Source: Thiocystis minor (lineage in GTDB: Bacteria; Pseudomonadota; Gammaproteobacteria; Chromatiales; Chromatiaceae). Taken from it: DNA of 52,037 bases. Where the stretch lies: contig NZ_NHSQ01000026.1 in assembly GCF_016653465.1 (NCBI RefSeq), positions 1 to 52,037 on the forward strand, in the 5' to 3' direction. The translations under genes were made by a program, and so were the position numbers. The notes below the pieces were generated by a model that had not been told where the DNA came from, did no database searches, and saw nothing but the letters and a program-made list of their open reading frames with translations. Below, in pieces: positions 34,198-51,222 of this stretch. Each line of letters begins with the position of its first letter. Position 1 is the stretch's first letter.

Positions 34198-34274
34198 GCC
34201 CTCGTAGCTCAGTTGGATAGAGCGATCGCCTCCTAAGCGGTAGGTCACAGGTTCAATTCCTGTCGAGGGCGCCA
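34198..34274 (+). tRNA. tRNA-Arg (anticodon CCT)
   Basis: A 77-nt cloverleaf: acceptor arms GCCCTCG and CGAGGGC, D-loop AGCTCAGTTGGATAGAGC, anticodon loop CTCCTAA with CCT reading AGG, T-arm GTTCAATTC, and an encoded CCA. A P4-type integrase starts 165 bp downstream, so the 3' half probably served as the attachment site of the island. No second copy of the tRNA 3' end was found in the window, so the other junction lies beyond it. Confidence 0.96.
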
Positions 34275-34297
34275 TTAACCCATCCCAGGCCGTCCGA

Positions 34298-34336
34298 AGA
34301 AGCCCGACACACCAGCCTAAGTGCGGGTTTTTTCTT
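34298..34336 (+). terminator. Intrinsic terminator of tRNA-Arg
   Basis: AAGCCCG-a-CAC pairs with GTG-CGGGTTT around the loop ACCAGCCTAA and is followed by a run of six T, a standard rho-independent signal 24 bases after the tRNA. Confidence 0.7.
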
Positions 34337-34439: not shown

Positions 34440-35628
34440 ATGCCCCTGACGGATGTCAAGGTCCGCACCGCCAAGCCCCGGGCAAAAACCGTGAAGCTCC
34501 ATGACGAGCGCGGTCTTTACCTGGAACTTGCCCCCAGCGGCGGCAAGTGGTGGCGCTTTAAATTCCGGTTCGCGGGCAAGGAGAACCGCCTGAGTCTTGG
34601 CGTCTATCCCGATGTGAGCCTGAAGCAGGCCCGCGAGCGCCGCGACGAAGCCCGGAAGATCCTGGCCGCCGGCGTCGACCCGGCCGCGCGCCGCAAAGCG
34701 GAAAAAGCCGCCGGCGCCGAACGCGCGGGAAACACCTTCGAGGTGATCGCGCGCGAATGGTTCGCCCGCCACTCCCCCGGCTGGGCAGAGTCCTACCGGA
34801 TCAAAATCACCAACAGCCTGGCCAATGACCTGTTCCCCTGGCTGGGGAGTCGTCCGATTGCCGAGATCGGCGCCCCCGAGTTGCTGGCGACCGCGCGCCG
34901 CGTGGAGGCCCGCGGGTCGCTCTACAGCGCGCACCGCACCATCGGCACCACTGGGCAGATTTTCCGCTATGGCATCGCCACCGGCCGCACCTATCGCGAC
35001 CCGTCCGGCGACTTGCGCGGGGCGTTGCCCCCAGCCAAGGGCAAGCACTTCGCGGCCGTGACCGACCCGGCCCGTGTCGGCGACCTGCTACGGATGCTCG
35101 ACGGCTATCGTGGGACCGTGACCGTCTGCGCGGCCCTGAAGCTGGCGCCGTTGGTGTTCGTTCGCCCTGGCGAGTTACGCAAAGCCGAGTGGTCCGACTT
35201 CGATCTTGACTCCGCGGAGCGGCGCTATCGCTCCACGAAGACCGACACCGCGCATATCGTGCCCCTGCCCCGCCAAGCCGTCGCGATCCTGCGCGACCTG
35301 CCCCCCCGTGACTGGTCGCGAGCGTTATGTCTTTCCAGGGGCACGCACCGCCGAACGGCCGATGTCGGAAAACGCCGTCCTGGCTGCCCGGCGCCGGATG
35401 GGGATCGAGAAGGATGACATGAGCGGGCACGGCTTTCGGGCGATGGCGCGCACCATCCTGGATGAGGTGTTGGGGTTCCGGCCCGATTTCATCGAGCACC
35501 AATTAGGGCACGCGGTCCGCGACCCGAACGGCCGCGCCTACAACCGCACCGCCCACCTGGACGCGCGTCGGAGCATGTTGCAGACGTAGGCGGATTATTT
35601 GGACGGTTTGAAAGTTGCTGGGTCTTGA
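34440..35628 (+). pseudogene. P4-type tyrosine integrase, disrupted
   Basis: The first 290 residues are a normal integrase: Arm-binding DUF4102 domain (MPLTDVKVRTAKP, KWWRFKFRFAGKENRLSLG), core-binding domain and catalytic FVRPGELRKAEWSDFD (first Arg). At the C7 run 35301-35307 the frame shifts. The other frame continues with YVFPGARTAERPMSENAV, SGHGFRAMARTIL and FIEHQLGHAV (the HxxR and H box) to a TAG at 35587, after which ADYLDGLK still reads in frame to 35628. So one frameshift and one nonsense change separate it from an intact enzyme. The shift sits on a homopolymer and could be a sequencing error; the stop less so. Confidence 0.85.
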
Positions 35629-35662: not shown

Positions 35663-36721
35663 GGCTCTTTCTGCGTTTCAGGCGGCTGCTAATTTTTTGT
35701 AATGTATTAACAATAGGCTTATCGTTACGAACCGCCAAGTAGGCTTGCAGGTCTCGGAGTTAGGCTGATGATCCCCCTTACAACGCTGCTGGACGACGTT
35801 AAGTGTTACGAAGTCCTGCGTGGTTTGCACTGGCCCGAAGGCGTGAGGTGCCCACACTGCCAGTCGTCGCAAGTGAGCAAACAAGGACGAGACACCACCC
35901 AGCCAGCACGCCAGAAGTATCGTTGTGGGGGCTGTGGGCGCCGCTTTGACGACGTGACGGGGACGATCTTCGCCGGTCGGCATCAGTCGTTGATGGTTTG
36001 GATCGGCTGTCTGTACCTGATGGGCTTGAACCTCTCCAACCTTCAGATTGCCCACGAGTTGGGTCTGAACGAGGATGACACGCAGCGGATGACCGAGCAA
36101 CTGCGCGCGGGGATCGTCGCCAGCCAGCCGACGCCGATGTTGTCGGGCGAGGTCGAGTGTGACGAGGTGTACGTGGTCGCCGGCCACAAAGGCCATCCTG
36201 AGGCCGTGAAAAAAAAGGGCGCCAGGGGCGCTGCCGTCGGCTGAAGGGAGCGCCCGGTCGCGGGACGCTGGAAAAAGAGAAGCCACCGATCTTTGGCATG
36301 ATCCAACGTGGTGGCCAGGTGGTGATTCGGATGCTGGAGAATGTTCAGCAACAGACCATCCGTCCGTTGATGTTGGCGGTGATTGCCCCGGGCACACAGG
36401 TCTACACCGACGAGTACAACATCTATGCCCGACTGACGGAGTGGGGTTATGGTCATAAAACGGTCTGTCACAGCCTGGGCGAATACGCCTCGTGATGAGG
36501 ACGGCGACGGCTTCCACGAGGTCCATGTCAACACCATGGAGGGCTTCTGGTCACTGTCGCGCTCCTGGCTGCGTCCTCCTCGCGGGATCTCCCAGGAGAA
36601 ATTGCCGCTCTACCTGGGGTTCTTTCAGTTCACTCACAACGTCCGCAGGCGCGGTCGGGGGCTGCTCCAGCCCATGCTCTCGGCCTTGCTGACCAGAGCC
36701 GCCTGAAAGACAGGAAGAGCT
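35663..36721 (+). mobile_element. IS1595-type insertion sequence (degenerate)
   Basis: Terminal inverted repeats at 35663-35687 (GGCTCTTTCTGCGTTTCAGG..) and 36697-36721 (inverse of AGCTCTTCCTGTCTTTCAGG..) match at about 21 of 25 positions and bracket one transposase frame. The eight bases outside the two ends do not match, so no target duplication is visible. The right end lies four bases from the start codon of the LpxB-like gene. Confidence 0.8.
35768..36706 (+). pseudogene. IS1595-family transposase with two frameshifts
   Basis: Over the full span (312 codons) an ISXO2-like transposase can be read: zinc ribbon CPHCQSS...YRCGGCGRRFDD, then GEVECDEVYVVAGHKGH (first catalytic Asp region), YTDEYNIYARL and the C-terminal VNTMEGFWSLSRSWLRP. 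The frame changes at the A8 run 36209-36216 and changes back near 36490, so the ends are in register. Programmed slippage at A8 is imaginable but would not explain the second shift. Taken as inactive unless the assembly is wrong. Confidence 0.8.
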
Positions 36722-36724
36722 ATT

Positions 36725-37945
36725 ATGGATAATTACTTGGCCTCTAGGCTGATCATTTGTGGCTGCGGCCCCGGCGAACTCGTCGCCTGGGTGCGTCCAT
36801 TGCTGGCTGCCCTGGCGCAGACCGAGCGGCGCTGGCAGACCACGCTAGTCTTGTGGCCACGCCTCTTTCTCAGCGGGCATGAGGCCGAGACTGCTCGCCA
36901 ACTGCCGGGCGTAGACCAAATTCTGAGTCCGGGCCGCTCGCTGGCTCTGCTGGCGGGCGCACCATTGCCCTGGTCTGATGCCGGCCCTCGGTCGAGTGTC
37001 TTGCTGCACATGGGTGGGGCCCCATTCTTGAGCCTGCGGCTCGGCAGGCGACTCGGCGCCCCGGTGCTGGCCTATTGCGAACAGCCGAACAGGCTCCCCT
37101 CCGGCTTCAACGCCATCTATTGCACGGACTCATGCAAGTCGATGGCCGCCGGAGTTACTCCGATTGGTAACCTATTGGTGGACGCGGTGTTTGCCTTGCG
37201 AGACCGACGGTTGGACCTCGATGCGGGCGATCCTGCTCTGATCCTCGGCTTGTTGCCGGGGAGTAGGGCCTTCCAGTTGCGACACTATCTGACCCGCGTC
37301 GGACCTGTGGCGGACGCACTTTCGCGTCGGGTGGACGCTTTGCAATTTCTGATCGCTCGCTCTCCACTAGTCGACGATGACATGGTGCGCGACGCGCTTG
37401 GGACGGGTGCGGGCGCGCGAATGGTGCAGGAACAGGATGTCACGGCCCTCATCACGGACCAGGGCCTGAGAATCCCCTTGGTCGATCCAGCGGAGGTGCT
37501 TTGCAGGGCGCATTGCCTACTCAGTACGCCAGGAACCAACACCGGGGAGGCTGCCGCCTTGGGTATCCCGCATCTGGTGGTCGCTCCGTTCGATCCGAGC
37601 TTCAAGATGTTCTCCGGGATGCTGGGGTTGATCGAGCGCAGCCACTGGCTGGGCAGGCCGCTCAAGCGTTGGGCATTGCGCTATCTGACCGGGGATGGTG
37701 CCTACTATGCACAGGCCAACGCGCGCGCGGGCCACGAGATCGTCCCTGAGCTTCAGGGGCCACTGGACATCGAGCGAGTGACCGACTGTCTAGCAAACTT
37801 GCTGCTGGATGCTCACCGCCGCAAGCGCATCAGCAGCGAGCTGTCAGGCGTCATGGGGCCACCGGGCGCGGCCAGTCGACTGGTTTCGGAACTGGAGCGC
37901 AAAGTCGTCGAGTCGGCCCACAACCCCACGTCGAACAGGCTATAG
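36725..37945 (+). CDS. LpxB-like glycosyltransferase-fold protein
   Basis: 406 aa, resembling the lipid-A-disaccharide synthase-related family (GT-B fold). N-terminal half: CGCGPGELVAWVRPLL in place of the LpxB GEVSGD. C-terminal half: LGLLPGSRAFQLRHYL, LSTPGTNTGEAAALGIPHLVV and an inserted stretch before LEGPLDIE-type end. It differs clearly from the canonical LpxB at 41255, so it may use another acyl-sugar. Its ribosome site (AGGAAGAG) lies within the right end of the IS1595 element, so expression may have been taken over. The stop at 37945 is followed by 532 bp without an intact gene. Confidence 0.6.
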   Translation: MDNYLASRLIICGCGPGELVAWVRPLLAALAQTERRWQTTLVLWPRLFLSGHEAETARQLPGVDQILSPGRSLALLAGAPLPWSDAGPRSSVLLHMGGAPFLSLRLGRRLGAPVLAYCEQPNRLPSGFNAIYCTDSCKSMAAGVTPIGNLLVDAVFALRDRRLDLDAGDPALILGLLPGSRAFQLRHYLTRVGPVADALSRRVDALQFLIARSPLVDDDMVRDALGTGAGARMVQEQDVTALITDQGLRIPLVDPAEVLCRAHCLLSTPGTNTGEAAALGIPHLVVAPFDPSFKMFSGMLGLIERSHWLGRPLKRWALRYLTGDGAYYAQANARAGHEIVPELQGPLDIERVTDCLANLLLDAHRRKRISSELSGVMGPPGAASRLVSELERKVVESAHNPTSNRL

Positions 37946-38477
37946 TGGTCGTTCTTGGCGCGGCACGGATCGTTGAGTTTGGAAACGTGCGGCGAATTGT
38001 CGTGATCTCAGCTAAGATCATGGGGTCGTATCCAAAGGGAACACTCAAAATCTCATGTAAGTTCGGAAGGCAAAGTCATAGCTTTTGTCGTTTAGGTCAA
38101 AATGAGAATTGCAGGTAGCATGGGGCGCTACCAGTGTTTTATACCAGATCTTGCGCGAAAAGCCCCGCCGGGATGGAGAGCGCCCGCCGTCGTCGGATCT
38201 TCCGCCTAGCGTGGTGTTTGCTGCTGTCTGATGTAGTGGTACACGATAGCAGTCGGCGCGCCCCCGCAGGAGGCGGCGAATTAGGAGGGCGATCAGAGCA
38301 CGCCCTTCCAGTCGCGCTGCTGGATGTCCGTCCGCTCCTGGCGCAGAAACCGGCTGGAAACGCCCTTGAGGCTGTTCACCAGAGCCAAGACCGCCACCTT
38401 GGGCGGGTACTCGACCAGCAGGTGAACATGATCGTCCTCGCCATCCATCTCCACCAAACACAGTAAATAGGCTATCC
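37946..38477. other. Gap between the LpxB-like gene and lpxD
   Basis: 532 bp without an intact gene. The right half holds an IS200 transposase relic (38206-38469, minus). The left half, with several short frames and the inverted-looking AT-richer stretch around 38030-38150, shows nothing I can name. Promoter elements for lpxD must be in the relic or just after it. Confidence 0.5.
38206..38469 (-). pseudogene. IS200/IS605-family TnpA relic
   Basis: The minus strand reads MDGEDDHVHLLVEYPPK (HUH motif His-Val-His), VNSLKGVSSRFLRQER, DIQQRDWKGVL and then AASCGGAP..IVYHYIRQQQTPR, a typical Y1 transposase C-terminal two-thirds. In-frame stops lie after KGVL and shortly beyond, and the N-terminus is missing. 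It ends at TAG 38206-38208. Dead element inside the lipid island. Confidence 0.8.
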
Positions 38478-39593
38478 ATGCACGAATCCTATTCCTCGCC
38501 GCAGCCGCCTGTCCTGACGCTTGCCGCGATAGCCCGAGCAGTCGATGGCAGTCTCAAGGGTGACGGTGCTCTTGCGGTGTGGAGGGTCGTGCGGCCGGAC
38601 CAGGTGGCTGCGGAGGCCGATCTGGTGCTGCTACTCGATGCGCAGGGGCTGCGAAGCCTGCGGCCCTCCGATGCCTGCTGCGCATTGATCGCGGCCGACC
38701 TGGAGCTGCCGTCCGGGATTCCTTGGCGTGGCTGGATCAGCGTAGAGCAACCCCGTTTGGCCTTGGCACGATTGCTCCCGCTGTTCGCGGCCAAACCCCG
38801 TCAGGCCGCGGGAGTTCATCCAAACGCCGTGGTGGAGCCCTCGGCCCGAATCGCAGCGGATGCCTTCGTGGGCCCCCTGAGCTATGTGGGCGAGAATGTC
38901 GAGATCGGCGCAGGTGTGTGCGTGCTCTCCAACTGCACCCTGGGCGCCAATTGCAGGATTGGCGACGGCAGCCTTCTGTACCCTGGGGTGCGGATCGGCG
39001 AGCGTGTCACCGTCGGCCGCCGTGCCATCATCCACGGCAATGCCTGCATCGGGGCGGACGGCTTCAGCTTTGCGCCGATCGGCGGTGCGGACGGCGGCAA
39101 TTCCATGGGCAGCGAGGCATGGGAGCCCGCCAGGATTCCGTCCCTCGGGTCGGTTATGATTGAGGATGACGTGGAGATCGGCGCTTGTGCCACCATCGAT
39201 CGTGGTACCCTGGGAGATACTCTTATTCGGCGAGGTACCAAGATCGACAATCTGGTGATGGTGGGACACAACAGCCGCATCGGCGAGTGCTGCCTGCTGG
39301 CGGGCCAGAGCGGCATCGCCGGCAGTTGCGAGCTGGAAGATCGGGTCGTGATGGGCGGACAATCCGGTATCGCCGACCATCTGCACATCGGCTCGCATGC
39401 AGTCATTGCGGCCAGTGCCGGCGTCTCGCAGCATGTGCCTGCGCACGCGGTCTTCATCGATAATCCAGCGGTTCCCTATGCGCGCTGGCAGGAGCGTTGG
39501 CGCAGCGTCGCACGCCTCAAGCGCATGTTCGGCGAACTCGAGCGGCTGAAACAGCGGCTCGTACAGGTCGAGCGCAGCCTGGGGAAGGGCTGA
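38478..39593 (+). CDS. lpxD: UDP-3-O-acylglucosamine N-acyltransferase (LpxD)
   Basis: 371 aa. LpxD adds the second 3-hydroxyacyl chain to UDP-acyl-GlcN from acyl-ACP in lipid A synthesis. N-terminal uridine-binding domain (LTLAAIARAVDGSLKGDG), left-handed beta-helix of hexapeptide repeats (about 110-330) with the catalytic His region MVGHNSRIG and NLVMVGHN, and a C-terminal helix (ARLKRMFGELERLKQRL). It is complete but lies away from the usual bamA-lpxD-fabZ-lpxA operon, which suggests an extra copy dedicated to this island. Confidence 0.92.
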   Translation: MHESYSSPQPPVLTLAAIARAVDGSLKGDGALAVWRVVRPDQVAAEADLVLLLDAQGLRSLRPSDACCALIAADLELPSGIPWRGWISVEQPRLALARLLPLFAAKPRQAAGVHPNAVVEPSARIAADAFVGPLSYVGENVEIGAGVCVLSNCTLGANCRIGDGSLLYPGVRIGERVTVGRRAIIHGNACIGADGFSFAPIGGADGGNSMGSEAWEPARIPSLGSVMIEDDVEIGACATIDRGTLGDTLIRRGTKIDNLVMVGHNSRIGECCLLAGQSGIAGSCELEDRVVMGGQSGIADHLHIGSHAVIAASAGVSQHVPAHAVFIDNPAVPYARWQERWRSVARLKRMFGELERLKQRLVQVERSLGKG

Positions 39594-39650
39594 CGTATCC
39601 AGCGTGACCTGCGCCAAGTCAATCGCCCCAGGGATGGAGCGAATCATCTC

Positions 39651-39670
39651 TCCTTGGCGACAGCCAAGGA
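39651..39670. other. Perfect hairpin after lpxD
   Basis: TCCTTGGC-GACA-GCCAAGGA forms an 8-bp stem with a 4-nt loop 58 bases after the lpxD stop. There is no following T run, so it is either a weak terminator or an mRNA processing hairpin that separates lpxD from the acp-KAS-lpxB genes. Confidence 0.45.
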
Positions 39671-39801
39671 TGGGGCTGGGAAACCGGGCTCAGCGTGTTG
39701 CCATGCGGGACAGAGATGCCCCGGCATTTTCAGGCGCTCAGTGCTTGAAGAATGGGGCGACTCAAAAGCCGTGCATCCAAGTTCTTTGGTATTCCAACAT
39801 C

Positions 39802-40047
39802 ATGACCCAAAACATTGAAAGTAGACTCATCGACATCATCGCCAAGGAAGCCCAGATCGAGCGGGACTGGCTGAAGCCCGAATCCACCATGGACGATTTC
39901 GGCGTGCCTTCGATCACGCAGCTTGAGGTGCTCTTCGCCATCGAGGAGTCCTTCGGTATCGAATTACCCGACAAGCCCGTCGATCTGACCCTCGCCGGCC
40001 TAGTTCGGCAGGTGGCGTCGATGGTCGAGCCGGGGAAGGACGCCTGA
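39802..40047 (+). CDS. AcpXL-like acyl carrier protein
   Basis: 81 aa. The pattern IDIIAKEAQIERDWLKPEST..MDDFG..LEVLFAIEESFGIELP is close to rhizobial AcpXL, the carrier for very-long-chain acyl groups of lipid A, and more distant from housekeeping AcpP. The phosphopantetheine serine is kept, but the usual DSL is PSI (GVPSITQL), so the transferase site is altered. Start taken at ATG 39802 although the frame opens earlier. The stop overlaps the next start (TGATG), coupling it to the ketoacyl synthase. Confidence 0.8.
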   Translation: MTQNIESRLIDIIAKEAQIERDWLKPESTMDDFGVPSITQLEVLFAIEESFGIELPDKPVDLTLAGLVRQVASMVEPGKDA

Positions 40048-41258
40048 TGCGACGGGTCGCCGTGACCGGCTTGGGCTGCATCTGCTCCCAGGGTCGCGAT
40101 GTGGATGAATTCTCCCAGGCCCTCAGCTCTGGCACCAGCGGGATCGGCGCACTGACGATCGTCCCCACCGAGCGGACGGTCTGCAAAGTGGCGGCCGAGG
40201 TGCACGGATATGATCCGGACGATTGGCTTATGCCCCAAGAGTCACAGCGCCTGGATCGATTCGCTCAGTTCGCGGTCATTGCCGGTCGTGAGGCAATGCG
40301 GGCCGCCGGCTTCGTTCCCAGCCGCGAGCAAGGCCTGCGCAGCGCGGTCGTCATGGGCAGCGGCATCGGCGGGCTGAGCACCTTGGACATCGGCTTCCAG
40401 CGTCTCTACGTCGAGGGACACAACAAGGTCTACCCGCTGAGCGTCCCCAAGGTGATGCTGAACGCCGGAGTCAGTGCCCTGTCGATGCAGTTTGGCATCC
40501 TTGGGCCCTGTTACGCTGTTTCGAGCGCCTGCTCATCCGCCAATCACGCCATTTCCCTGGCCTTCGCCATGGTCCGCAGCGGCCAGGCGGACCTGGCGCT
40601 CACCGGTGGCAGCGAGGCATGTTTGACTTTCGGCATGGTCAAGGCGTGGGAGGCTCTGCGGGTGTTGGCGCCCGATACCTGCCGCCCCTTCAGCAAGGGC
40701 CGCCAAGGTATCGTGCTTGGAGAGGGCGCTGGCGCCCTAATCCTGGAGCCCCTGGATCTGGCACTGGCGCGCGGCGCCACCATCCATGCGGAGCTGGTGG
40801 GATGCGGCCTGTCCTCGGACGCAAGCGACCTTACCCTGCCGGATCCCGACGGTGCCGCTCGTGCCATGCAGGCGGCCCTCTTGGATGCGGGTCTCGCGCC
40901 TGAGCAGGTCAACTACATCAACGCGCACGGCACTGGAACCCCGGCGAACGACGCGAGCGAAACCCGTGCCATCCGTGCGGTATTCGGTGCCCATGCCGGA
41001 CGACTTGCGGTCTCCTCCACTAAGTCCATGCACGGGCATGCCTTGGGCGCGGCTGGCGCCTTGGAGGCAGTCGCGACCATCCAGGCCCTGAAAACCCAGA
41101 TAGCGCCGCCGACCATCAACTATCTGGAGCCCGATCCGGACTGCGATCTAGACTATGTGGCCAACCAGGCCCGTCCCATGCCAATCGAGGTCGCCCTGTC
41201 CAACTCATTCGCCTTCGGTGGCCTCAATGCCGTGGTGGCCTTCCGCCGCTACCCGTGA
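40047..41258 (+). CDS. Beta-ketoacyl-ACP synthase (KAS II/NodE-FabF type)
   Basis: 403 aa condensing enzyme. Catalytic triad: Cys in SSACSSANHAI, His in NAHGTGTPAND and His in STKSMHGHALGAAG; Lys of TKS is present. The C-terminal NSFAFGGLNA is typical. It would extend acyl chains on the ACP encoded just upstream (TGATG overlap). Together they resemble the acpXL-fabF or nodF-nodE pairs that make special acyl chains. The GTG start of lpxB overlaps its stop. Confidence 0.9.
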   Translation: MRRVAVTGLGCICSQGRDVDEFSQALSSGTSGIGALTIVPTERTVCKVAAEVHGYDPDDWLMPQESQRLDRFAQFAVIAGREAMRAAGFVPSREQGLRSAVVMGSGIGGLSTLDIGFQRLYVEGHNKVYPLSVPKVMLNAGVSALSMQFGILGPCYAVSSACSSANHAISLAFAMVRSGQADLALTGGSEACLTFGMVKAWEALRVLAPDTCRPFSKGRQGIVLGEGAGALILEPLDLALARGATIHAELVGCGLSSDASDLTLPDPDGAARAMQAALLDAGLAPEQVNYINAHGTGTPANDASETRAIRAVFGAHAGRLAVSSTKSMHGHALGAAGALEAVATIQALKTQIAPPTINYLEPDPDCDLDYVANQARPMPIEVALSNSFAFGGLNAVVAFRRYP

Positions 41259-42487
41259 GCAGCCCCCTGCGGATTCTAATCAGCGCCGGCGAGGTGTCCG
41301 GAGACCTCTACGCAGCCCAGCTGGTCCGGGCCTTAATGGCAGCCGCTGGCCCGCCGGATTCGCTGGAGATCAAGGCGGTAGCCGGCGAGCGGACCCGCCA
41401 GGCGGGGGCCGCATTGCTAGCGATCTCATCCAGCCGCGCCGCACTTGGCTTCGTCGCGCCGCTGCGGCATCTCGGTCCGGCGCTAACCACGGCGCTGCGA
41501 ATCCGGCATGAGCTCACGCGCTGGCGCCCCCAGGTATGCGTACTGCTGGACTACCCCGGCTTCAACATCCCTCTGTCCGGCATCATCCGGCGAGTCAGTG
41601 CCGCGCCGATCCTCTATTACCTGCCCCCGGAGGAGTGGATCTGGGCGGCCCAGGGCAATCGGCGATTGAACAGGACCGCGCGGGTGGTCGCTAACTGCGA
41701 CTGCCTGCTAACCACGCACGGGATCGATACCGCCTTCTACACAGCCGCCGGCGCTAAGGTGCGCCGCGTCGGTCATCCACTGCTGGAGCTAGTCGACGAG
41801 GAGGGGCTGCGACAGCGTGACATGGCGTCGGACAAAGCCAATTGCGTTGCCCTGCTACCGGCATCCAGACGCCAAGAGCTGGGGCTGCTCTGGCCGGCAT
41901 TGGCGCGGGCTGCGGCCTTGATGGCGCGCGCACGCCCGGAGCTGAAGTTTCTGGTGCCGTTGGCCGCAGCCCACCTGCGACCGGAACTTGTGTGGGCATG
42001 CGCGTCCGCGCAGCGCCGACATCCCGAGCTGGCAGGCCGCTTGTGCCTCGTCGAGCCTACGCCCGAAATCCCCTATCCCACCCTCGCCGTCGCTTGGCGT
42101 GCCGGAGCGGCGCTGAGCAAATCCGGCAGTGTCAGCCTGGAGCTAGCCCTGGCCGGCGTACCGCATCTGGTGGCTTTGCGGATTGATCGAATGACCGAAT
42201 GGGTAGGGCGGCACTTTCTGAAGCTCTCGGAGCAGGATTTCCCCCATGTGGCGCTGCCCAACCTCATCCTCGGCCGCGAGCTGGTGCCCGAGTTCAAGCT
42301 GCACGCGATCGATCCAGTGCGGATGGCCGCTACGGGTCTCGCGCTGCTCGATCCGGCAAGCTCGGCCCGGGCGGCCCAGCTCAGTGGCTTCGACGAACTG
42401 CGGACGGCCTTGGGTGGCGCGGGTGCCGCCGCACGCAGCGCCCGCATCATCCTGGAGATGGCTCAGGGCAGTGCCTCAGCAGCGTGA
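41255..42487 (+). CDS. lpxB: Lipid-A-disaccharide synthase (LpxB)
   Basis: 410 aa, GT19. LpxB joins UDP-diacyl-GlcN and lipid X at the inner membrane. Motifs: ISAGEVSGDLYAAQL, DYPGFNIPL, GHPLLELV, LLPASRRQEL, SGSVSLELALAGVPHLV and PNLILGRELVPEF. The segment PPEEWIWA replaces the common SPSVWAWR, a difference near the acceptor site. A GTG start overlaps the KAS stop. Translational coupling of ACP, KAS and LpxB argues that the acyl chain made here ends up on an LpxB product. Its 3' end overlaps a P450 relic by 12 bases. Confidence 0.9.
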   Translation: MSSPLRILISAGEVSGDLYAAQLVRALMAAAGPPDSLEIKAVAGERTRQAGAALLAISSSRAALGFVAPLRHLGPALTTALRIRHELTRWRPQVCVLLDYPGFNIPLSGIIRRVSAAPILYYLPPEEWIWAAQGNRRLNRTARVVANCDCLLTTHGIDTAFYTAAGAKVRRVGHPLLELVDEEGLRQRDMASDKANCVALLPASRRQELGLLWPALARAAALMARARPELKFLVPLAAAHLRPELVWACASAQRRHPELAGRLCLVEPTPEIPYPTLAVAWRAGAALSKSGSVSLELALAGVPHLVALRIDRMTEWVGRHFLKLSEQDFPHVALPNLILGRELVPEFKLHAIDPVRMAATGLALLDPASSARAAQLSGFDELRTALGGAGAAARSARIILEMAQGSASAA

Positions 42488-42741
42488 CAGAAGCATCGGC
42501 AGCCCGTAGCGGGGACGCAGAGTCAGGCGCTTCAAGGGCTCTACCACCGCGCCGGGTCGCAGGTCCAGGCGAAAACGCTGGGCGCTCATCGCCAGGGCGC
42601 GGACCAGCTCTTGCGTGGCGAAACCGGCGCAGGGACAGACCCGCAGTCCCGCGCCAAAGGGGATGTAAACACTGGTTGCTGTGGTTGCTGTGCGGTTCGC
42701 CGGCATCAAGGAAGCGCTCCGGCCGGAAGGTGATTGGTTTT
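42476..42741 (-). pseudogene. Cytochrome P450 C-terminal fragment (inverted copy)
   Basis: The minus strand reads KPITFRPERFLDAG, then after a 1-bp insertion near 42663 YIPFGAGLRVCPCAGF and on to LTLRPRYGLPMLLSRC. This is nearly the same as the last 85 residues of the intact P450 at 47339-48688, and the DNA matches at roughly nine of ten positions. The glycine after the heme-ligand Cys-Pro has become Cys. The 5' four-fifths are missing. It lies in the upstream region of the GT39 gene, opposite strand. Confidence 0.88.
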
Positions 42742-42769
42742 GTACTGTACTGAGCGTCGCGACAAAGAC

Positions 42770-44470
42770 ATGACACGTATCACAGGTGCAGACCCCATTG
42801 TTTATTTCGCCCCCTGGGCGCTGCTTCTCGTCGCCTTAGCGCTTGCTGATTCTACGCAGTTGTGGGACCGTGACGAAGCCTACTACGCCCGCACCGCTGT
42901 GGAGATGCTGCATGGAGGCGATTGGCTCATTCCCCACTTCAACAGTGAAACCTTTGCCCACAAGCCCCCACTGGGGTATTGGCTGATATCACTCTCCATG
43001 GTCGCGCTCGGCGAGAGCGAGCTTGCCGCGAGGCTTTGCTCGGCCTTAGCGCTACTGGCCACCGCGCTTCTCACCCGACGAATTGCGGCCAGACTCTTCG
43101 ACGCGGAAACGGGGCGGTGGTCCGCCGTCATCCTGATGACCGCTATCTTGCCGCTGATCCTTGGATCGCTGGCCATGCTTGACATGGTCCTGCTGATGTT
43201 CATCACGCTGGGCATTTGGGCCTTCGTGGAGCAAATCCATCAGCCAAAACCTTGGTGGCGGTCTGGACTCTGGATGACAGTGGCCATGGGCGGGTCGATG
43301 CTGACCAAGTTTCCGATCGGACCAGTCGTGCTCATGTCAATGGTTCTGACCTCGTTGGCGATCGGGCGCCGGTCTGTCTGGGCAGGGCCGCTGCCACTCT
43401 TGGCGACAGCGGCGGCCATGATCCTTGGGCTAGCGATCTTCCTCGCTTGGGCGATTCCCGCGGACTTGGCCTCGGGAGGGAAGATGCTCGAGGTGGGACT
43501 GGTACAGCAAGTATTGTCAAAGGTGGTGCATCCCATGGAAGGCCATGGTGCGAGCAGCCTGGGCGGTTACCTTGCCTTGCTGCCGGTCTATGCCCCGGTG
43601 CTGGTCATCGGTTTCTTCCCCTGGGCAATCCATCTTCCGGCGAGTCTAGCGGCGCTGCTATACAGGGACATCGGTGGAGTCCGAGCAAGGGCTATCCTCT
43701 GGGGATGGATTGCTCCGACCTTCGTGATGTTCAGCCTGGCTGCAACGAAGTTGCCTCACTACATCCTTCCCCTGTTTCCGGCGGTGGCAATTTTGGTTGC
43801 CGCGACGCTGACCGCCCACAGGCACGGACAGCTATCGGACGGAAGCCGTGCCTGGCTGCGGGGTGGGGCCTATCTGTTCGGCGTCATGGCGGCAATCTCC
43901 ATGGCGGCCCTGCCTGTCATTGGCTGGGTCAGCGGCGGAGCCCAGACCTTGGCTCAAGCCTTGGTGCCGGCAATCGCCCTGGCACTGAGCGCCGCCGCAG
44001 TCATCCGCTGGCAGCTTCGCGAACAGCTCCAGCCCGTCAACCTCATGCTCATGATCGCGACGCCACTCATCCTGTTCGCGTCGGTCTATCTGGTGGTCCT
44101 GCCATTGGAGTCGCGGATCAAGCCCGGCCCCGCCATCGCTAGCCTGCTGACGCCGCGAATCGATCCCGGCACGCTGGTGTATGCGCACGGCTACCGTGAG
44201 CCAGGCCTGGTTTTCTACCTGCGTCGCCCCGTGGAAAACCCAATCCGCGAGCTGCCCGAATCGGCCCAGGCTATCGCCGCTTGGTCTAAGGAGTCCACGC
44301 CGGCGATGCTCATCGTTCCAGAGCAGGAACTGGCCACCATCGAGGCCCAAACGGGTCCCCTCGATCTCGCGCGGCTCGGCTCGGTGACGACGGTCAATTT
44401 CAACGATCACGCCCGCGAATCCCGCCTGCTCCTTGTGGCGCGCCGGCTGCCGGCCGTCATGTCGCCTTGA
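42770..44470 (+). CDS. GT39-family (ArnT-like) membrane glycosyltransferase
   Basis: 566 aa with about twelve hydrophobic helices. The first loop has the catalytic acid pair of the family (LWDRDEAYYARTAVEMLHGGDWLIPHFN), and HKPPLGYWL and KLPHYILPLFPA are typical of ArnT/PMT_2. ArnT enzymes move a sugar from undecaprenyl phosphate to lipid A on the periplasmic side. The C-terminal domain is soluble. Start at ATG 42770; GTG/ATG codons upstream lie in the P450 relic. The sugar is unknown; no arnABCD genes are present. Confidence 0.85.
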   Translation: MTRITGADPIVYFAPWALLLVALALADSTQLWDRDEAYYARTAVEMLHGGDWLIPHFNSETFAHKPPLGYWLISLSMVALGESELAARLCSALALLATALLTRRIAARLFDAETGRWSAVILMTAILPLILGSLAMLDMVLLMFITLGIWAFVEQIHQPKPWWRSGLWMTVAMGGSMLTKFPIGPVVLMSMVLTSLAIGRRSVWAGPLPLLATAAAMILGLAIFLAWAIPADLASGGKMLEVGLVQQVLSKVVHPMEGHGASSLGGYLALLPVYAPVLVIGFFPWAIHLPASLAALLYRDIGGVRARAILWGWIAPTFVMFSLAATKLPHYILPLFPAVAILVAATLTAHRHGQLSDGSRAWLRGGAYLFGVMAAISMAALPVIGWVSGGAQTLAQALVPAIALALSAAAVIRWQLREQLQPVNLMLMIATPLILFASVYLVVLPLESRIKPGPAIASLLTPRIDPGTLVYAHGYREPGLVFYLRRPVENPIRELPESAQAIAAWSKESTPAMLIVPEQELATIEAQTGPLDLARLGSVTTVNFNDHARESRLLLVARRLPAVMSP

Positions 44471-44483
44471 GGGATCAAGGCCG

Positions 44484-45323
44484 CTATGGCGAATCAGCCG
44501 GCACTTGCCGGCGTAAAAGGATCTTGGCGTAGCGCAGAAAGAAGTAGAAGCCCGACATGCCGCAGCCGATCAGACCCTTCGAGCCATCCAGAAACCCCAG
44601 TTGCACCAGATAGCGGTGCAGAAACACCAGCCAGGGCTCCAGGCTCACGCCAAACAGGACTCGCAACAGGGGCGTGTCGGCGTCCCTGGCGGCAATGAGG
44701 TCCGTATAGCGGTCCAGCTTGGCCAGTTGATGACTCAGGCTGTCGTAGGGGCGGTGCAGGATGCAACCGTCCAAGTGACCCGCTCGGCCCCGGATCAGGC
44801 GCAGGGATTCATGTATGCAGTCCGCGTCCCAGCGGGCCCGATTACGGCGCACCAGGCGCAGCTTGCGCTCACCCAGCCAGGGACCATAGTTCACCCAACG
44901 CCCCAGATAGAGTGTGACGCGGCGCAACCAGAAACCATCGGGGGACGGATCGTCGCCGTGAGCCAGCAGATGCCGAATGCCGTCCCACGCAATCGGATCC
45001 AGCCATTCGTCCGCATCAAGACAGAGCAGCCACTCGCCCCGCGCCTGCTCAAGTGCGAACTGCTTCTGCGAGCCGTAGCCGTCAAAATCGCGGTGCAGTG
45101 TCCTGGCGCCAGCTACCCGGGCGATCTCCAGAGTCCCATCGGTGCTGCCCGAATCCACCAGCAGGATCTCGTCCGCGAGACCTTCAACCGATTCCAGACA
45201 GCGCGACAGGCTGGACGCCGCGTTGAGGGTGATCAGCACAAGCGATAGTCTCACCCCTTGGCGGTCGGGAGTCTCGCCGGAGGGGATGGAGACCGAAGAT
45301 TGAAAGTGGGCGAGAGCGGACAT
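44484..45323 (-). CDS. GT2-family glycosyltransferase (WaaE/KdtX-like)
   Basis: 279 aa. GT-A fold with SLVLITLNAASSLSRCLES, LVDSGSTDGTLEIA, DGYGSQKQFAL and LCLDADEW (DXD-like), then FWLRRVTLYLGRWVNYG and a C-terminal basic, membrane-associated part. Members such as WaaE add a beta-glucose to the LPS inner core. It converges on the GT39 gene (14-bp gap) and is divergent from the IPTL-CTERM gene. There is no good Shine-Dalgarno at ATG 45323. Confidence 0.85.
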   Translation of the reverse strand: MSALAHFQSSVSIPSGETPDRQGVRLSLVLITLNAASSLSRCLESVEGLADEILLVDSGSTDGTLEIARVAGARTLHRDFDGYGSQKQFALEQARGEWLLCLDADEWLDPIAWDGIRHLLAHGDDPSPDGFWLRRVTLYLGRWVNYGPWLGERKLRLVRRNRARWDADCIHESLRLIRGRAGHLDGCILHRPYDSLSHQLAKLDRYTDLIAARDADTPLLRVLFGVSLEPWLVFLHRYLVQLGFLDGSKGLIGCGMSGFYFFLRYAKILLRRQVPADSP

Positions 45324-45466
45324 AGGGAAAAGGTGCCAATATGACGGACGATGAAAAGCTTGAGTATTTTTTCGTCCGATCCAGGTGATAATGGCTAGCC
45401 AAAGATGCTAGATTAAACGCCCATGCGGTTACCCTCTACGGTATAACTCTTCAGAGGAAGGTTAAA

Positions 45467-46225
45467 GTGAAGTCAAATTCATCTGCTGTGATCAGATTCC
45501 TCGCCATTGCCACCCTCTCGGCCGGTTCTGGCTCTGGATTGGCTCAAGTCGACTGCACCGTCTCGGGTGGGGATGGGGTGACCCAATCCGCTAGGGGTCC
45601 TGACACCGGTGTTACCTGGAAACTTCGCTATAGTCCCAGTCAAGGAGGAGGATTTGCGCAGATCCTGACTGGGACAGACGGGTTCGTCTGCCAGAGTTCG
45701 GTTACCTTGACCGACACCAGTCTGGAGCTGCCTGATTGTGGCCTGAGTTTTTCGAGGAGGAGCGGCAGCGATCTGTTCCATTCCGGCAGTTTCACCAACG
45801 GGCATGGGACCGGATCGGGCTATCTGGTGGACACGAACGGAGACGGGCTGGCGGACACTCTGGCGCTGCGGCTGGCCTACCCGGGCGCACCGGATTTGCG
45901 TATGGATATCCCCCTGAAATACTATCCGGACGCACGTACCCCCACCCACTGGCTGTTGCCGCTCCAGCTCCCCTATGGCGGCGGACGGACCTTCAACATC
46001 GGCTTCAACTATTACACGCCGGTCGACGCCCAAAATCAGAGAATCGATATTGAGTGCCCCGGCGGCCCGACCGTCTCGACGGGGCTGGCCGCAGCCATCA
46101 GTCCCAGCGGCATCCCCACACTGTCCTTCTGGGGATACGCCGTCATGATCCTGCTCCTGGCGTTCGCTGGCATCGGCGTGCTGCGCAATCGCGGCTTCGG
46201 CGACGATCTCCATCTGCGCGCTTGA
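45467..46225 (+). CDS. IPTL-CTERM sorting-signal protein
   Basis: 252 aa. Signal peptide (IRFLAIATLSAGSGSGLAQ, cleavage near residue 27), a central domain without known match containing paired Cys (DCTVSGG, ELPDCGLSF), and at the C-terminus the tripartite IPTLSFWG motif, hydrophobic helix (YAVMILLLAFAGIGVL) and basic RNRGF. IPTL-CTERM proteins are thought to be processed by exosortase-type enzymes and displayed on the surface. GTG start behind AGAGGAAGG. No exosortase gene is in the window. Confidence 0.85.
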   Translation: MKSNSSAVIRFLAIATLSAGSGSGLAQVDCTVSGGDGVTQSARGPDTGVTWKLRYSPSQGGGFAQILTGTDGFVCQSSVTLTDTSLELPDCGLSFSRRSGSDLFHSGSFTNGHGTGSGYLVDTNGDGLADTLALRLAYPGAPDLRMDIPLKYYPDARTPTHWLLPLQLPYGGGRTFNIGFNYYTPVDAQNQRIDIECPGGPTVSTGLAAAISPSGIPTLSFWGYAVMILLLAFAGIGVLRNRGFGDDLHLRA

Positions 46226-46316
46226 CTTCCCAGGCGTCCGCGATTCTCTCTCCGATCTGGCGCGGCAGTTCCGCGCTGTCGATCGGAGCGGTTGCCCATC
46301 ACCGAGGAATACCCCT

Positions 46317-46535
46317 TTGAGCATCTTCTGGAAAGAATCCGTCGTCTTCCTGAAGCTATGGTTGCTGTTGCTGCTCACCTACCTCATGGGCGTGCTGGCA
46401 TTCGACTTGACCTTCTATGGGTGGATCGACCTGCGCCAGGACGCCATCGCCCGCCTCATCTACCTTCCGCTCGTGCAGACGGTCGCTTTTCAGCTTCTCA
46501 CCTACCCCAGGCGCCACAAGCCCCAGGTGCAATAG
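46317..46535 (+). CDS. Small two-helix membrane protein
   Basis: 72 aa from a TTG start with GAGGAA upstream. Two hydrophobic segments (VVFLKLWLLLLLTYLMGVLAF and ARLIYLPLVQTVAFQLL) flank a short polar loop (YGWIDLRQD); the tail is basic. No family recognised. It lies 91 bp after the IPTL-CTERM gene and could be co-transcribed with it. Confidence 0.5.
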   Translation: MSIFWKESVVFLKLWLLLLLTYLMGVLAFDLTFYGWIDLRQDAIARLIYLPLVQTVAFQLLTYPRRHKPQVQ

Positions 46536-46620
46536 TTCGGCAGGAATGAGCCTCGGTCCCGATCATGGGTCGCGCGGCAACGCCCTGGACTAGTCCATTC
46601 CCGTCGATTCAGTCCGGCGC

Positions 46621-47340
46621 TCAGCCGGACAGCGACGCTCCGGGACGCCCTGAGACAAGCCCCCGCAGCCGCTCCTCAAGTGCGTTCATCCGCTGCTCCA
46701 GCTCGCGCGCGAGCTGTTCCAGATCGGCCGGCCCGGCCTCGCGCGGTATCCACAGCGGCGCTCCGACCACCCCATCCACCCGCGAGAACGGCAGCGGAAG
46801 CACGAACCGATCCCAGTGGCTGCGCAGTCCTAGCCCCCAGTGAGCGATGCTTGCCGCCGGAACCAGGGGGCAACCCGTCAGCCGTGCCAGCGCCAGCGGG
46901 CCTTGTTTCATACGCCGCGCCGGGCCGCTCGGACCATCGGGAAAGAGCCCGAGCGAGCGGCCTTGCCGTAAGTGCCCGGCAAGCTGCCGCAGAGCGGCGA
47001 GGGACTGGTAGCGGCTGTCGCCGGTGATCGATTCGACGCCCAAGTGGCGCGCGACCGCGGCGCCGATCTGCCCATCCCGCGTCGGGCTGGCCAGGGTGAC
47101 GATGCCCTGCTCGGCGGCGGTCTGCACCGCCAGCAGTAATTGGGAATGCCAGATGACGAAGATGAAAGGCTGGCCGGCGTCGGCCAGGCGGATGAAGTGG
47201 TGTCGGTCGTGCAGTCTGACCCGCAGACTGCTGATCAGAGAGCGACCAAGCGGGGCCAACAGGGCGATAATAGCCTGGTCACCCCGGCGCAAACCGCCGA
47301 TCCGATCCGATTCAACCCGCTTGGAAGAGCCTTCGACCAT
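46621..47340 (-). CDS. DUF374 lysophospholipid/lipid A-type acyltransferase
   Basis: 239 aa of the DUF374 (LPLAT-like) family. FVIWHSQLLL holds the WH dyad that stands for the HxxxxD-type active site, with SPTRDGQIGAAVA, LGLFPDGPSGPAR and LVPAASIAHWGL following in family order. Such proteins are thought to acylate lipid A precursors or other glycolipids. The ATG shares two bases with the ATG of the P450 on the other strand (CATG at 47338-47341), so the genes are strictly divergent with no intergenic DNA. Confidence 0.82.
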   Translation of the reverse strand: MVEGSSKRVESDRIGGLRRGDQAIIALLAPLGRSLISSLRVRLHDRHHFIRLADAGQPFIFVIWHSQLLLAVQTAAEQGIVTLASPTRDGQIGAAVARHLGVESITGDSRYQSLAALRQLAGHLRQGRSLGLFPDGPSGPARRMKQGPLALARLTGCPLVPAASIAHWGLGLRSHWDRFVLPLPFSRVDGVVGAPLWIPREAGPADLEQLARELEQRMNALEERLRGLVSGRPGASLSG

Positions 47341-48688
47341 GTCTCACCCCTGTCCTGCTATGCCCGCTCGTCCACTCGCTCCCTGGCAATGGCTGACCGC
47401 CGCGCGCGACAACAGTCTTTCAATCTGGCACCAGGGGGCCTTCACTGAATTGCTCATGCACCGGCGACTGCCCGGCCGCGACCTTTGGGTGCTGAATAAC
47501 CCAGGCGACGTCCGTCAGGTGCTGGTACGCGAGGCAGAGTACTATATCAAGAGTGCCGAGACTTGGCGTCCGCTCCGACCGTTGCTGGGCAGATCGCTTT
47601 TCATCAGCGAGGATGAAGACTGGCGACTGCGTCGCCGGGCCATCGCCCCGCTGTTGACCGGCCACGAACGGCTGCATGCCTATGAGGGGTTGATGATCGA
47701 GGCGGTGGACGAGATGCTCTCCCGCTGGGAGATGCTGGAACAGGGTGCCGAGCTGGAGATGTCCTGGGAGTGCACCCGTCTGGCGGCAGAAGTGGTCAGC
47801 CGCGCCCTGTTCAGCTTCCGGTTGGAGGGGCACGCTCGCACCGTCTACGAGGCGCTCAATCGCTACCAGGACACCCTCGGCCGGCTGGACCTCATGAGCC
47901 TGCTGGGACTGCCGAGCTGGCTGCCCCGTCCGGGCGAGCGCGAAGCCCGGCGTGCGGTCGTTCGGCTGGAAGGGGTGGTCGAGACGATCCTGGAAGCGGT
48001 CCGCCGCCGCGGAGGCGGCGATCACCGGGACCTGCCTGGCCTGCTCATGAGAGCCGATACAAAGGGGCATGAGACCCTCAACTCCACCCAGGTGCGCGAC
48101 GAATTCATGCTCGCCCTGCTCGCGGGGCACGAGACCACCGCGAATGCCCTGTGTTGGGCCTACTACCTGCTAAGCCAGGACGAGAGGGTTCGCAGCGCCC
48201 TGGAGACCGAGGTCGACCGTGAGCTCGCCGGCGCAACCCCAACGCCGGGTGACCTGGCGCGGCTGCCCTACGTCAGCGCTGTGGTCAGCGAGGTTTTGCG
48301 CCTCTACCCGCCCATCTACCAGTTCACGCGCCAAGCGCGTGGCGAGAGCCGGCTCGGTCAACGCACCCTGGCCACCGGCTCGCTGTTGGTGATCTCTCCC
48401 TGGCTGCTGCACCGGCATCACCGGTTCTGGAAGCAGCCCCATGCTTTCCAGCCGGAACGCTTCCTTGATGCCGGCGGACGGCGCCGCAACCAGTGCTACA
48501 TTCCCTTTGGTGCGGGACCGCGGGTCTGTCCTGGCGCCGGTTTCGCCATGCAAGAGCTGGTCTGCGCCGTGGCGATGAGCGCTCAGCGTTTTCGCCTGGA
48601 CCTGCGACCCGGCGCGGTGGTGGAGCCCCTAGGGCGCCTGACCTTGCGTCCCCGCTACGGGCTGCCGATGCTTCTGTCTCGCCGCTGA
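47339..48688 (+). CDS. Cytochrome P450
   Basis: 449 aa. I-helix LLAGHETTANAL, K-helix EVLR with the ERR-type PERF, and heme loop FGAGPRVCPGAGFAMQEL with the Cys ligand are all present, so the enzyme looks active. The N-terminal WxxxR pattern in DWRLRRRAIAPLL fits the bacterial class close to CYP102/fatty-acid type enzymes. Redox partners are not encoded nearby. Given the context, a fatty-acyl hydroxylase is plausible but inferred. Start ATG 47339 after GGAAGAG; the frame is open upstream to 47024 on top of the DUF374 gene. Confidence 0.88.
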   Translation: MSHPCPAMPARPLAPWQWLTAARDNSLSIWHQGAFTELLMHRRLPGRDLWVLNNPGDVRQVLVREAEYYIKSAETWRPLRPLLGRSLFISEDEDWRLRRRAIAPLLTGHERLHAYEGLMIEAVDEMLSRWEMLEQGAELEMSWECTRLAAEVVSRALFSFRLEGHARTVYEALNRYQDTLGRLDLMSLLGLPSWLPRPGEREARRAVVRLEGVVETILEAVRRRGGGDHRDLPGLLMRADTKGHETLNSTQVRDEFMLALLAGHETTANALCWAYYLLSQDERVRSALETEVDRELAGATPTPGDLARLPYVSAVVSEVLRLYPPIYQFTRQARGESRLGQRTLATGSLLVISPWLLHRHHRFWKQPHAFQPERFLDAGGRRRNQCYIPFGAGPRVCPGAGFAMQELVCAVAMSAQRFRLDLRPGAVVEPLGRLTLRPRYGLPMLLSRR

Positions 48689-48953
48689 GGCGCTGTGTTG
48701 GCTCTCACTTTATTCAACCGGCCGTTTCTCAAATTATTTCCCGGCGGGTGCCGTCCACTTTCCCACACTGATCGCACCGGTGGATCAGCGTTGGCAGGCG
48801 GAACAGCACGGACATAGGTGATGACTGCATTGGTAGTCGCGGCATGTGGGGGGCAAAATGGAAGTAAGTCGTCGAAGTCGAACAGCTCAAGCTGAGTGTG
48901 GGTCGCTGGGGCTGGTGCGCACGCGAAGTGCTCGCGCAGCACCATGCACCGCG
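48689..48953. other. Gap between P450 and Tn3 relic
   Basis: 265 bp with no gene I can support. A minus-strand frame (HRCDQCGKVDGTRR) has a CxxC pair but no recognisable family. It is probably transposon debris. Confidence 0.4.
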
Positions 48954-49535: not shown

Positions 49536-51032
49536 ATGCGTCAGATTATCGACCCCCAATTCCAACTCGGCGAACAGGACATCGCGGCCATCGAACTCGA
49601 CCGCCAATCGCGTGACGATATCCCGCGCCTCCTGCGCGGATTGCAGTTCATTGATAACGAGACAGCGGTGCGCGAGCGGGTGTTCGCCATCCTCGCGGAG
49701 GTACTGCCTGATCGGGTCGATGACACCGGTACGGTCAGCGCGGTCAGCGCGGACACCGGCCGACCGGGCATGCCCCAGTGGCGCATCCTGGTGTTGGGTA
49801 CCCTGCGCCTGGGGCTGAATGCCGACGACGATCGGATCCAGGAACTGGCCAATCAGCATGCGACCATCCGCCAGATGCTTGGCCATGGCGATTGGGCGGA
49901 TGACACCCGTTATGCGTTGCAGACGCTGAAGGACAACCTGCGCCTGTTCACCCCTGAGGTGTTGGATCGCATCAACCAGGAGGTCGTCCGAGCCGGTCAC
50001 GTTTTGGTAAAAAAAAGTCCGGACGACGCCCTCGCGGTGCGCGTTGACTCCTTCGTGGTCGAGACCGACGTGCACTTTCCCACCGACCTCAACCTGCTGG
50101 CCGATGCCGTGCGCAAGGCGATCGAGACCAGTGCTGACCTGTGCGAACAGGCCTCCTTCAGCGACTGGCGCCAGAGCGCTTACAATCTGCGCGGCCTGAA
50201 CCAGGCGTATCGGCGGGTCCAGCAGCTCAAGCGCTCGACCTCCCAGGACGCGGCCAAGCGTGAGGCCCGTCAGGGCGAGATCCGGCAGGCCTGCAGTGAC
50301 TATCTGGCGCTCGCCGAGTCGTTCCTGGAGCGTGCGCGCCTGACCCGCCTCAAGCTGGCGGTCGAGGCCCATGTGCCCGAGGTTCAACTGGCCCCGTTGG
50401 ACGCCTATCTGGTCCACGGCGCGCGCCAGATCGTTCAGATCCGCCGTCGTCTCCTGGAGGGTGAGCGCATCCCGCATGGCGAGAAGGTCTTCTCCATCTT
50501 CCAGCCGCACACCGAATGGATCAGCAAAGGCAAGGCCGGGGTGGCGGTCGAGCTGGGGCTGCGGGTGGCGATTGGCGAAGATCAGCAGGGGTTCATCCTG
50601 CACCATCAGGTGATGGAACAGACGACTGACGATCAGATCGCCGTCCCCTTCGTGATGGCGATCCGCGCCCGCTTCCCCGAGACCCACAGCGTCAGCTTCG
50701 ACAAAGGCTTTCACAGCCCGGCCAATCAACGCCAACTGACCCAGATCGTGGCATTGCCGGTGCTGCCCAAAAAGGGCAAGTGCTCGGGCGCCGAGTGGGA
50801 GCGCGAGCACGACCCGCGCTTCATCCGCCTGCGCCACCGCCACAGCGCGGTGGAGTCGGCCATCAACGCCTTGGAGGCGCATGGGCTCGACCGTTGCCCC
50901 GACCACGGCCTCGACGGCTTTAAACGCTATGTGGCCATGGCGGTGGCGGCGCGTAATATTCACCGCCTTGGTGCCATCCTGTTGGCCGCTGAGGCTGAGC
51001 AGGAACGGCGTCGGCAACGGCGGGCCGCCTAA
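49536..51032 (+). CDS. ISNCY-type transposase
   Basis: 498 aa intact frame (MRQIIDPQFQLGEQDIAAIELD, LRGLQFID, PQWRILVLGTLRLGLN, VRVDSFVVETDVHFPTDLNLL, SFDKGFHSPANQ and RHRHSAVESAINALE). These fit the ISNCY group with DDE-type Asp in VDSFVVETDVHFPTD and FDKGFHS and Glu in SAVESAIN. It may be active. Neither flank (49365-49535, 51033-51222) shows clear terminal repeats by eye, so the element ends are not called. Confidence 0.8.
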   Translation: MRQIIDPQFQLGEQDIAAIELDRQSRDDIPRLLRGLQFIDNETAVRERVFAILAEVLPDRVDDTGTVSAVSADTGRPGMPQWRILVLGTLRLGLNADDDRIQELANQHATIRQMLGHGDWADDTRYALQTLKDNLRLFTPEVLDRINQEVVRAGHVLVKKSPDDALAVRVDSFVVETDVHFPTDLNLLADAVRKAIETSADLCEQASFSDWRQSAYNLRGLNQAYRRVQQLKRSTSQDAAKREARQGEIRQACSDYLALAESFLERARLTRLKLAVEAHVPEVQLAPLDAYLVHGARQIVQIRRRLLEGERIPHGEKVFSIFQPHTEWISKGKAGVAVELGLRVAIGEDQQGFILHHQVMEQTTDDQIAVPFVMAIRARFPETHSVSFDKGFHSPANQRQLTQIVALPVLPKKGKCSGAEWEREHDPRFIRLRHRHSAVESAINALEAHGLDRCPDHGLDGFKRYVAMAVAARNIHRLGAILLAAEAEQERRRQRRAA

Positions 51033-51222
51033 CCCCCTTGTTGGCGTGACGCGGCTGGTACTCAGGGAGGCGTGTGTCTGCGCGAGGGCCATGATGAGAC
51101 TTTTTCTCATCCGGCGCTGCGCGCGGCGTTCCAACCAGGACTGACTCAAGAAAAATGCCTCGCCGGGTGCGATCAATTGCCCCCGACTGGGGTCAAATTC
51201 AGAGTTTTCGGTCAGACACTAT

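Follow-up and report, generated by a model that had tools for sequence, protein, structure and literature searches.

A rare group of some seven Thiocystis minor genes that looks like an accessory lipid A-type acylation and disaccharide cluster

In rhizobia, the gene cluster for very-long-chain fatty acids, acpXL-fabZXL-fabF2XL-fabF1XL-(adh)-lpxXL, places a dedicated acyl carrier protein (ACP) and ketoacyl-ACP synthase (KAS) beside a lipid A acyltransferase, as described in PMC5613085 and PMC11901934. The family formerly named DUF374 is now called LpxJ, and its characterised members acylate lipid A (PMC6148475). Together with LpxD and LpxB of the Raetz pathway, these are the closest described systems to a gene cluster which we found in a stretch of 52,037 nucleotides (the window), the contig C26 (NZ_NHSQ01000026.1) of the 5.3-Mb genome of Thiocystis minor (G000). 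The cluster looks like a rare accessory set of about seven genes in a member of the purple sulfur family, existing besides the normal lipid A genes. A homologous cluster occurs on a 7.2-kb contig of the Chromatiaceae bacterium isolate EFPC_118 (G014, recorded as a Chromatiaceae metagenome-assembled genome), which belongs to the same family. The seven genes of the window, all open reading frames across the expected length, are:

36725..37945, forward strand: LpxB-like1, an LpxB homologue without the catalytic base (hhalign, residues, G014 homologue at 45% identity)
38478..39593, forward strand: accessory LpxD (TIGR01853 286.4 bits, cut-off 242.5; both histidines conserved)
39802..40047, forward strand: acyl carrier protein with PSI at the phosphopantetheine site (PF00550; start taken from the G014 homologue)
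40047..41258, forward strand: ketoacyl-ACP synthase with Cys-His-His motifs (domain and motif; 68% identity to G014)
41255..42487, forward strand: LpxB2, accessory lipid A disaccharide synthase (PF02684 172.8 bits, cut-off 22.6; active site mostly kept)
46621..47340, reverse strand: DUF374 acyltransferase of the LpxJ family (PF04028 56.7 bits, cut-off 26.8; N-terminal part beside the P450 in G014)
47339..48688, forward strand: cytochrome P450, full length (PF00067 226.6 bits; 62% identity to the G014 P450)

With the rhizobial cluster, this locus has in common that a lipid A acyltransferase gene is accompanied by an ACP and a KAS of its own. However, there is only one KAS, and in a domain scan of ten proteins from the stretch we found neither FabZ nor an LpxL-type domain; instead, the window offers LpxD, two LpxB homologues, LpxJ and a P450. 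The rhizobial set, as given in PMC5613085, is thus not supported as a model, since FabZ, a second KAS and the LpxL-type domain are missing among these ten proteins. With the Raetz pathway, the cluster has in common the families and most of the active-site residues of LpxD and LpxB2, whereas it differs in that the two proteins share only 32-33% identity with the housekeeping copies in their own genome, that their genes are linked to ACP, KAS and P450 genes, and that the ten proteins contain no LpxA, LpxC, LpxH or LpxK domain, as an earlier note on this DNA had stated. That note had also listed an LpxB-like protein, LpxD, ACP, KAS, LpxB, GT39, GT2, DUF374 and P450; all of these were confirmed at their places, and the overlaps of start and stop codons were recovered as well (CTGATG for ACP stop and KAS start, CCGTGA for KAS stop and LpxB2 start). 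Several of its statements needed correction, and on the whole it was partly confirmed. The literature searched, judged by titles and the beginnings of abstracts, does not describe this combination; among the same kind of records on Chromatiaceae lipid A with mannose, on AcpXL with a hydroxylase and on LpxB-like proteins, nothing on the cluster was found. The combination is rare among the genomes searched, and every step corresponds to a known enzyme class.

We consider it somewhat probable that the cluster constitutes an accessory Raetz-type branch using an acyl chain of its own, which would lead to a specially acylated subpopulation of lipid A or to a second lipid A-like glycolipid. Four observations carry this reading: the gene families, the conserved synteny, the kept active-site motifs and the separateness from the housekeeping copies. 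The latter are found on contig C157 of G000 in the order bamA-skp-lpxD-fabZ-lpxA-lpxB-rnhB. The genome also possesses a third LpxD (contig C63), one other LpxB as well as three acyltransferases of LpxL type; several of these gene names were assigned by reading the translations. The cluster is therefore additional to the housekeeping lpxD-fabZ-lpxA-lpxB genes, as had been proposed, and its lpxD and lpxB genes are not the only copies in the genome. The third LpxD gene (L014 11854-12951, reverse strand) lies outside any lpx operon and near genes which, by eye, resemble MotA/MotB.

Between the island LpxD and the housekeeping copy the identity is 33%; with the copy on C63 it is 38% over 293 residues. 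Two histidines, His 264 and His 301, which we take to be catalytic, are aligned in 12 of 12 rows. In the tree of these 12 rows, five housekeeping LpxD sequences fall into one clade (100/99), while both island sequences make up another (100/98); two of the other rows were flagged as long. The earlier note had suggested such a phylogeny as a check. The carrier protein had been called AcpXL-like. Its best NCBIfam match, NF005079/PRK06508, presumably the AcpXL model, scores 40.4 bits and hence lies below the cut-off of 83 bits, and this model is not the top match of the G014 ACP. The KAS pair of the two islands groups with the ACP-KAS pairs of two further genomes (G003, G011) and is split with 100/100 from 26 FabF-type rows. 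This tree comprises the 30 rows with loci out of 50 matches listed; neither the FabF genes that G000 and G014 themselves possess nor further paralogues are included, as they had no locus, and the program issued a long-branch warning. On this basis, the KAS appears to group with stand-alone ACP-KAS pairs rather than with FabF. Two other members of the family have ACP-KAS pairs grouping with the island KAS, at L074 9716-11169 and L075 9248-10701.

In order to assess the two LpxB homologues, we used the active-site residues of Escherichia coli LpxB as listed in PMC5785501; they were transferred via the motifs of the housekeeping LpxB, the E. coli protein not being a row of the alignment. LpxB2, which shares only about 32% identity with the housekeeping LpxB of G000, keeps Glu 15, Ser 17, Asp 98, Pro 198, Ser 200, Arg 201 and Glu 281, and has the exchanges G199A and T277S. 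LpxB-like1 keeps Pro 198, Gly 199, Ser 200, Arg 201, Thr 277 and Glu 281 (E. coli LpxB numbering), but carries Gly, Cys and Pro at the positions of Asp 98, Glu 15 and Ser 17 in both genomes, and hence lacks residues expected of an LpxB. Comparison with the LpxB profile by hhalign gave a probability of 98.5% (E-value 3.2e-15, 339 columns). Judged by these data, LpxB-like1 is a full-length LpxB homologue which has kept the nucleotide-binding residues and lacks the catalytic base. It matches TIGR03492 ("lipid-A-disaccharide synthase-related protein") over residues 144-294, but is no member of that family, as it reaches only 34.9 bits with a cut-off of 219.2. Against solved structures the best E-value was only 0.25, and the predicted model had a mean pLDDT (per-residue confidence) of 44.8 and was unusable.

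LpxB dimers are known to swap their C-terminal domains. An extended form of our reading, which we regard as unlikely, would be an island-borne parallel pathway of Raetz type making a second disaccharide with a P450-oxidised chain, whose synthase would be a hetero-complex of LpxB2 and the dead LpxB-like1 formed by this swap. Alternatively, the product might be ordinary lipid A: the accessory LpxD, ACP and KAS would conditionally replace the N-acyl step, LpxB2 would follow its substrate, and no second glycolipid would be made. In Francisella, paired LpxD enzymes differ in chain specificity, and the housekeeping lpxA and the three LpxL-type genes of G000 could serve both routes. Since the linkage of a diverged LpxB2 and an altered LpxB-like1 in both genomes would be left unexplained, we see in alternative acylation a possible but doubtful solution.

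The residues Trp 64-His 65, Asp 89, Asp 135 and Trp 176-Asp 177 of the window's DUF374 protein correspond to the six that are critical in LpxJ of Rickettsia typhi; they were matched by motif position against PMC6148475, not by alignment to that protein. The LpxJ residue His 84, not critical in R. typhi according to the same paper, is a threonine here. In addition to the shared domain and critical residues there is a difference in context: the window's gene is divergent from a P450 gene in an Lpx cluster. In G014, the contig end cuts the acyltransferase gene, likewise divergent from the P450 gene, leaving 47 residues. These align without gaps to residues 17-63 of the window protein with a score of 89, whereas the best of 2000 shuffles reached 62 and other window proteins 17-36. 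In the order, 8 of 204 genomes carry DUF374, own genome included and G014 not among them. None of the seven stretches fetched for the other loci contains the cluster; at one of them an LpxD with 32% identity is nearby. The neighbours are a Kdo transferase in four cases, which favours the accessory Raetz branch, and an LssY_C protein in two, and at the seventh locus one frame was tested, which gave no Pfam match. The DUF374-type genes L033 556-1326 and L034 2886-3665 of genus g47 are those beside an LssY_C-domain protein, elsewhere the neighbourhood being that of a Kdo transferase.

For the P450, the start at 47339 was preferred to 47024 based on the homologue. Among solved structures, its closest relatives comprise a putative P450 (7wzl) as well as plant carotene hydroxylases and, after these, CYP102-type enzymes. 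The very long chains and the omega-1 hydroxylation by the P450, which had been suggested for this locus, are guesses. P450s are typical tailoring enzymes, and the Lpx-type enzymes may have been recruited to make a different acylated amino-sugar lipid or a small natural product, which the P450 would tailor. The positions of LpxD and KAS outside the housekeeping clades, the low similarity of LpxB2 to the housekeeping LpxB, and the lack of both lpxK and Kdo genes in the set of ten scanned proteins would suit such a product. As LpxD exceeds a curated cut-off, LpxB2 has mostly the active site of LpxB, and LpxJ is a family of lipid A acyltransferases, we deem a product other than lipid A improbable. 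The core of the earlier interpretation, namely accessory genes for lipid A-type acylation and disaccharide formation, stands, in contrast to the AcpXL assignment, the inclusion of GT39 and GT2, and the very long omega-1-hydroxylated chains.

The favoured accessory Raetz branch gains from the conservation of the cluster. In G014, LpxB-like1, LpxD, ACP, KAS and LpxB2 follow one another on one strand, and the P450 gene is convergent with that of LpxB2. The proteins of window and G014 are 45% (LpxB-like1), 57% (LpxD), 54-57% (ACP), 68% (KAS), 52% (LpxB2) and 62% (P450) identical. These six genes thus form one unit in two genera, to which DUF374 is joined in both, and finding the same order in another genus is more than chance. 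Differences at codon positions 1, 2 and 3 amount to 0.23-0.43, 0.20-0.32 and 0.43-0.65, respectively (six genes; DUF374 was not compared); the excess at third positions is typical of proteins maintained by selection.

Within the family, LpxB-like1 was detected in 2 of 194 genomes; searching with a two-row profile yielded 2 carriers among 210 genomes of the order and 1 among 398 drawn from the phylum, own genome counted in each case. A scan of GTDB species genomes with two patterns, by which alone phyla beyond Pseudomonadota were reached, gave 71 stretches with a single relative, the identical contig of G014. At a threshold of 1e-55, LpxB2 was matched in 2 of 369 genomes of the class, one being the window's own and the other a housekeeping LpxB; accordingly G568 was rejected as a third carrier, its locus being lpxD-fabZ-lpxA-lpxB. 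G003 and G011 were likewise dismissed as carriers, because their fetched stretches hold ACP-KAS pairs and match only the island ACP and KAS; this comparison used four island proteins (LpxD, LpxB2, LpxB-like1, ACP) or the query set then in use. Among plasmid records, LpxB-like1 had no match and LpxB2 matched 34, with identities of at most 31.97% among the 15 matches listed and 31.3% for the best match; among viral contigs, LpxB2 gave 25 stretches and no relative.

Compared with G014, where lpxB2 and the P450 gene overlap tail to tail, the right half of the cluster appears to be rearranged. The features concerned are:

42476..42709, reverse strand: 3' fragment of a P450 gene (77 amino acids), meeting LpxB2 tail to tail, an arrangement shared with G014, and overlooked in the earlier note
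48446..48695, no strand assigned: inverted copy of 42469-42728, i.e. P450 3' end and last lpxB2 codons (repeat search and alignment)
42764..44470, forward strand: GT39 membrane glycosyltransferase of ArnT/PMT type, candidate member only (PF13231)
44484..45323, reverse strand: GT2 glycosyltransferase, candidate member only (PF00535)

The P450 fragment overlaps lpxB2 by 12 bp, and the full P450 gene with DUF374 follows about 4 kb onward in opposite orientation. The inverted copies agree over 199 nucleotides at 90% and 54 nucleotides at 83%, the lpxB2 stop being lost in the far copy. The simplest reading, which we infer from this arrangement, is that the P450-DUF374 block was reversed by an inverted duplication, which also introduced or enclosed GT39, GT2 and a gene whose product may be secreted. 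GT39 and GT2 had been counted among the cluster genes. However, the matches in G014 are only 29-38% identical, and a close GT39 was found only in the own genome out of 195; as the G014 contig ends inside DUF374 and that genome is 89% complete, their absence there is not established. The inverted repeats of about 250 bp enclose 5.7 kb, and recombination between them would flip P450, DUF374, GT2 and GT39. The protein encoded by 45467-46225 (forward strand) matches midcut-by-XrtH weakly (24.9 bits, cut-off 45) and by eye has an IPTL-type C-terminal signal; it is a possible exosortase substrate within the island.

To the left of the cluster, photosynthesis genes are located (magnesium-chelatase-type, NifH/frxC-type and protochlorophyllide-reductase-type proteins, reaction-centre H chain, phytochrome), which are followed by a tRNA-Arg gene, an integrase, an insertion element and the lipid A-like cluster:

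34198..34274, forward strand: tRNA-Arg (CCT), possible old integration site (ARAGORN)
34440..35589, forward strand: tyrosine integrase, broken (Phage_int_M and Arm-DNA-bind_3; C-terminal part in another frame)
35664..36720, forward strand: IS1595-type element with 24-bp inverted ends and transposase in pieces (repeat search; Zn_ribbon_IS1595)
38299..38457, reverse strand: remnant of an IS200-like transposase between LpxB-like1 and LpxD (Pfam Y1_Tnp, 5.6e-15)

Both the tRNA and the integrase reported ahead of the cluster were located, but the integrase is split over two frames (34440-35417 and 35206-35589). As to a second attachment site, none of the 14-mers in 34235-34330, the end of the tRNA with the bases after it, is repeated elsewhere in the window, and G+C along the window showed no clear step at the island border. 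Two more transposase regions (DDE_Tnp_1, DDE_Tnp_1_6) lie at 49536-51823, at the right edge near the contig end. Insertion sequences have cut into the cluster: the IS1595-type element ends 4 bp upstream of the LpxB-like1 start, and the IS200 remnant lies inside. Together with the broken integrase and the partial P450 copy, this could mean that the island is decaying and has no function in this strain. We consider such decay very improbable, given that seven frames are of full length and that the six compared genes differ more at third codon positions.

Several points weigh against an accessory Raetz branch. The IS200 remnant, the abutting IS1595-type element and the inverted P450 block make expression in the window uncertain, and the cluster is known from two genomes alone. 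With TIGR00215, LpxB2 remains under the cut-off of 190.25 bits both in the window (174.8) and in G014 (184.2). Among the ten scanned proteins there is no FabG or FabZ and no product of lpxC, lpxH or lpxK, for which the rest of the genome was not searched. Pfam detected no DUF374 in the G014 fragment; consequently, the link of this gene depends on the 47-residue alignment and on the same placement. As carotenoid hydroxylases rank ahead of the CYP102-type fatty-acid hydroxylases, the substrate of the P450 is not fixed.

In an accessory Raetz branch, the steps might be ordered as follows. UDP-3-O-acyl-glucosamine would come from the housekeeping enzymes LpxA and LpxC. On the dedicated ACP, an acyl chain may be lengthened or selected by the cluster's own KAS, the other fatty-acid enzymes being borrowed, and the accessory LpxD would transfer this chain to the amine. 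LpxB2, perhaps complexed with the catalytically altered LpxB-like1, would form the disaccharide, LpxJ would attach a secondary acyl chain, and the P450 would oxidise a chain. If this is true, outer-membrane lipid chemistry would be extendable by a compact cassette that brings along an N-acyltransferase, an acyl supply, a disaccharide synthase, a late acyltransferase and an oxidase. The cluster would then permit testing whether a degenerate LpxB can serve as a partner subunit and whether a P450 acts on lipid A-type chains.

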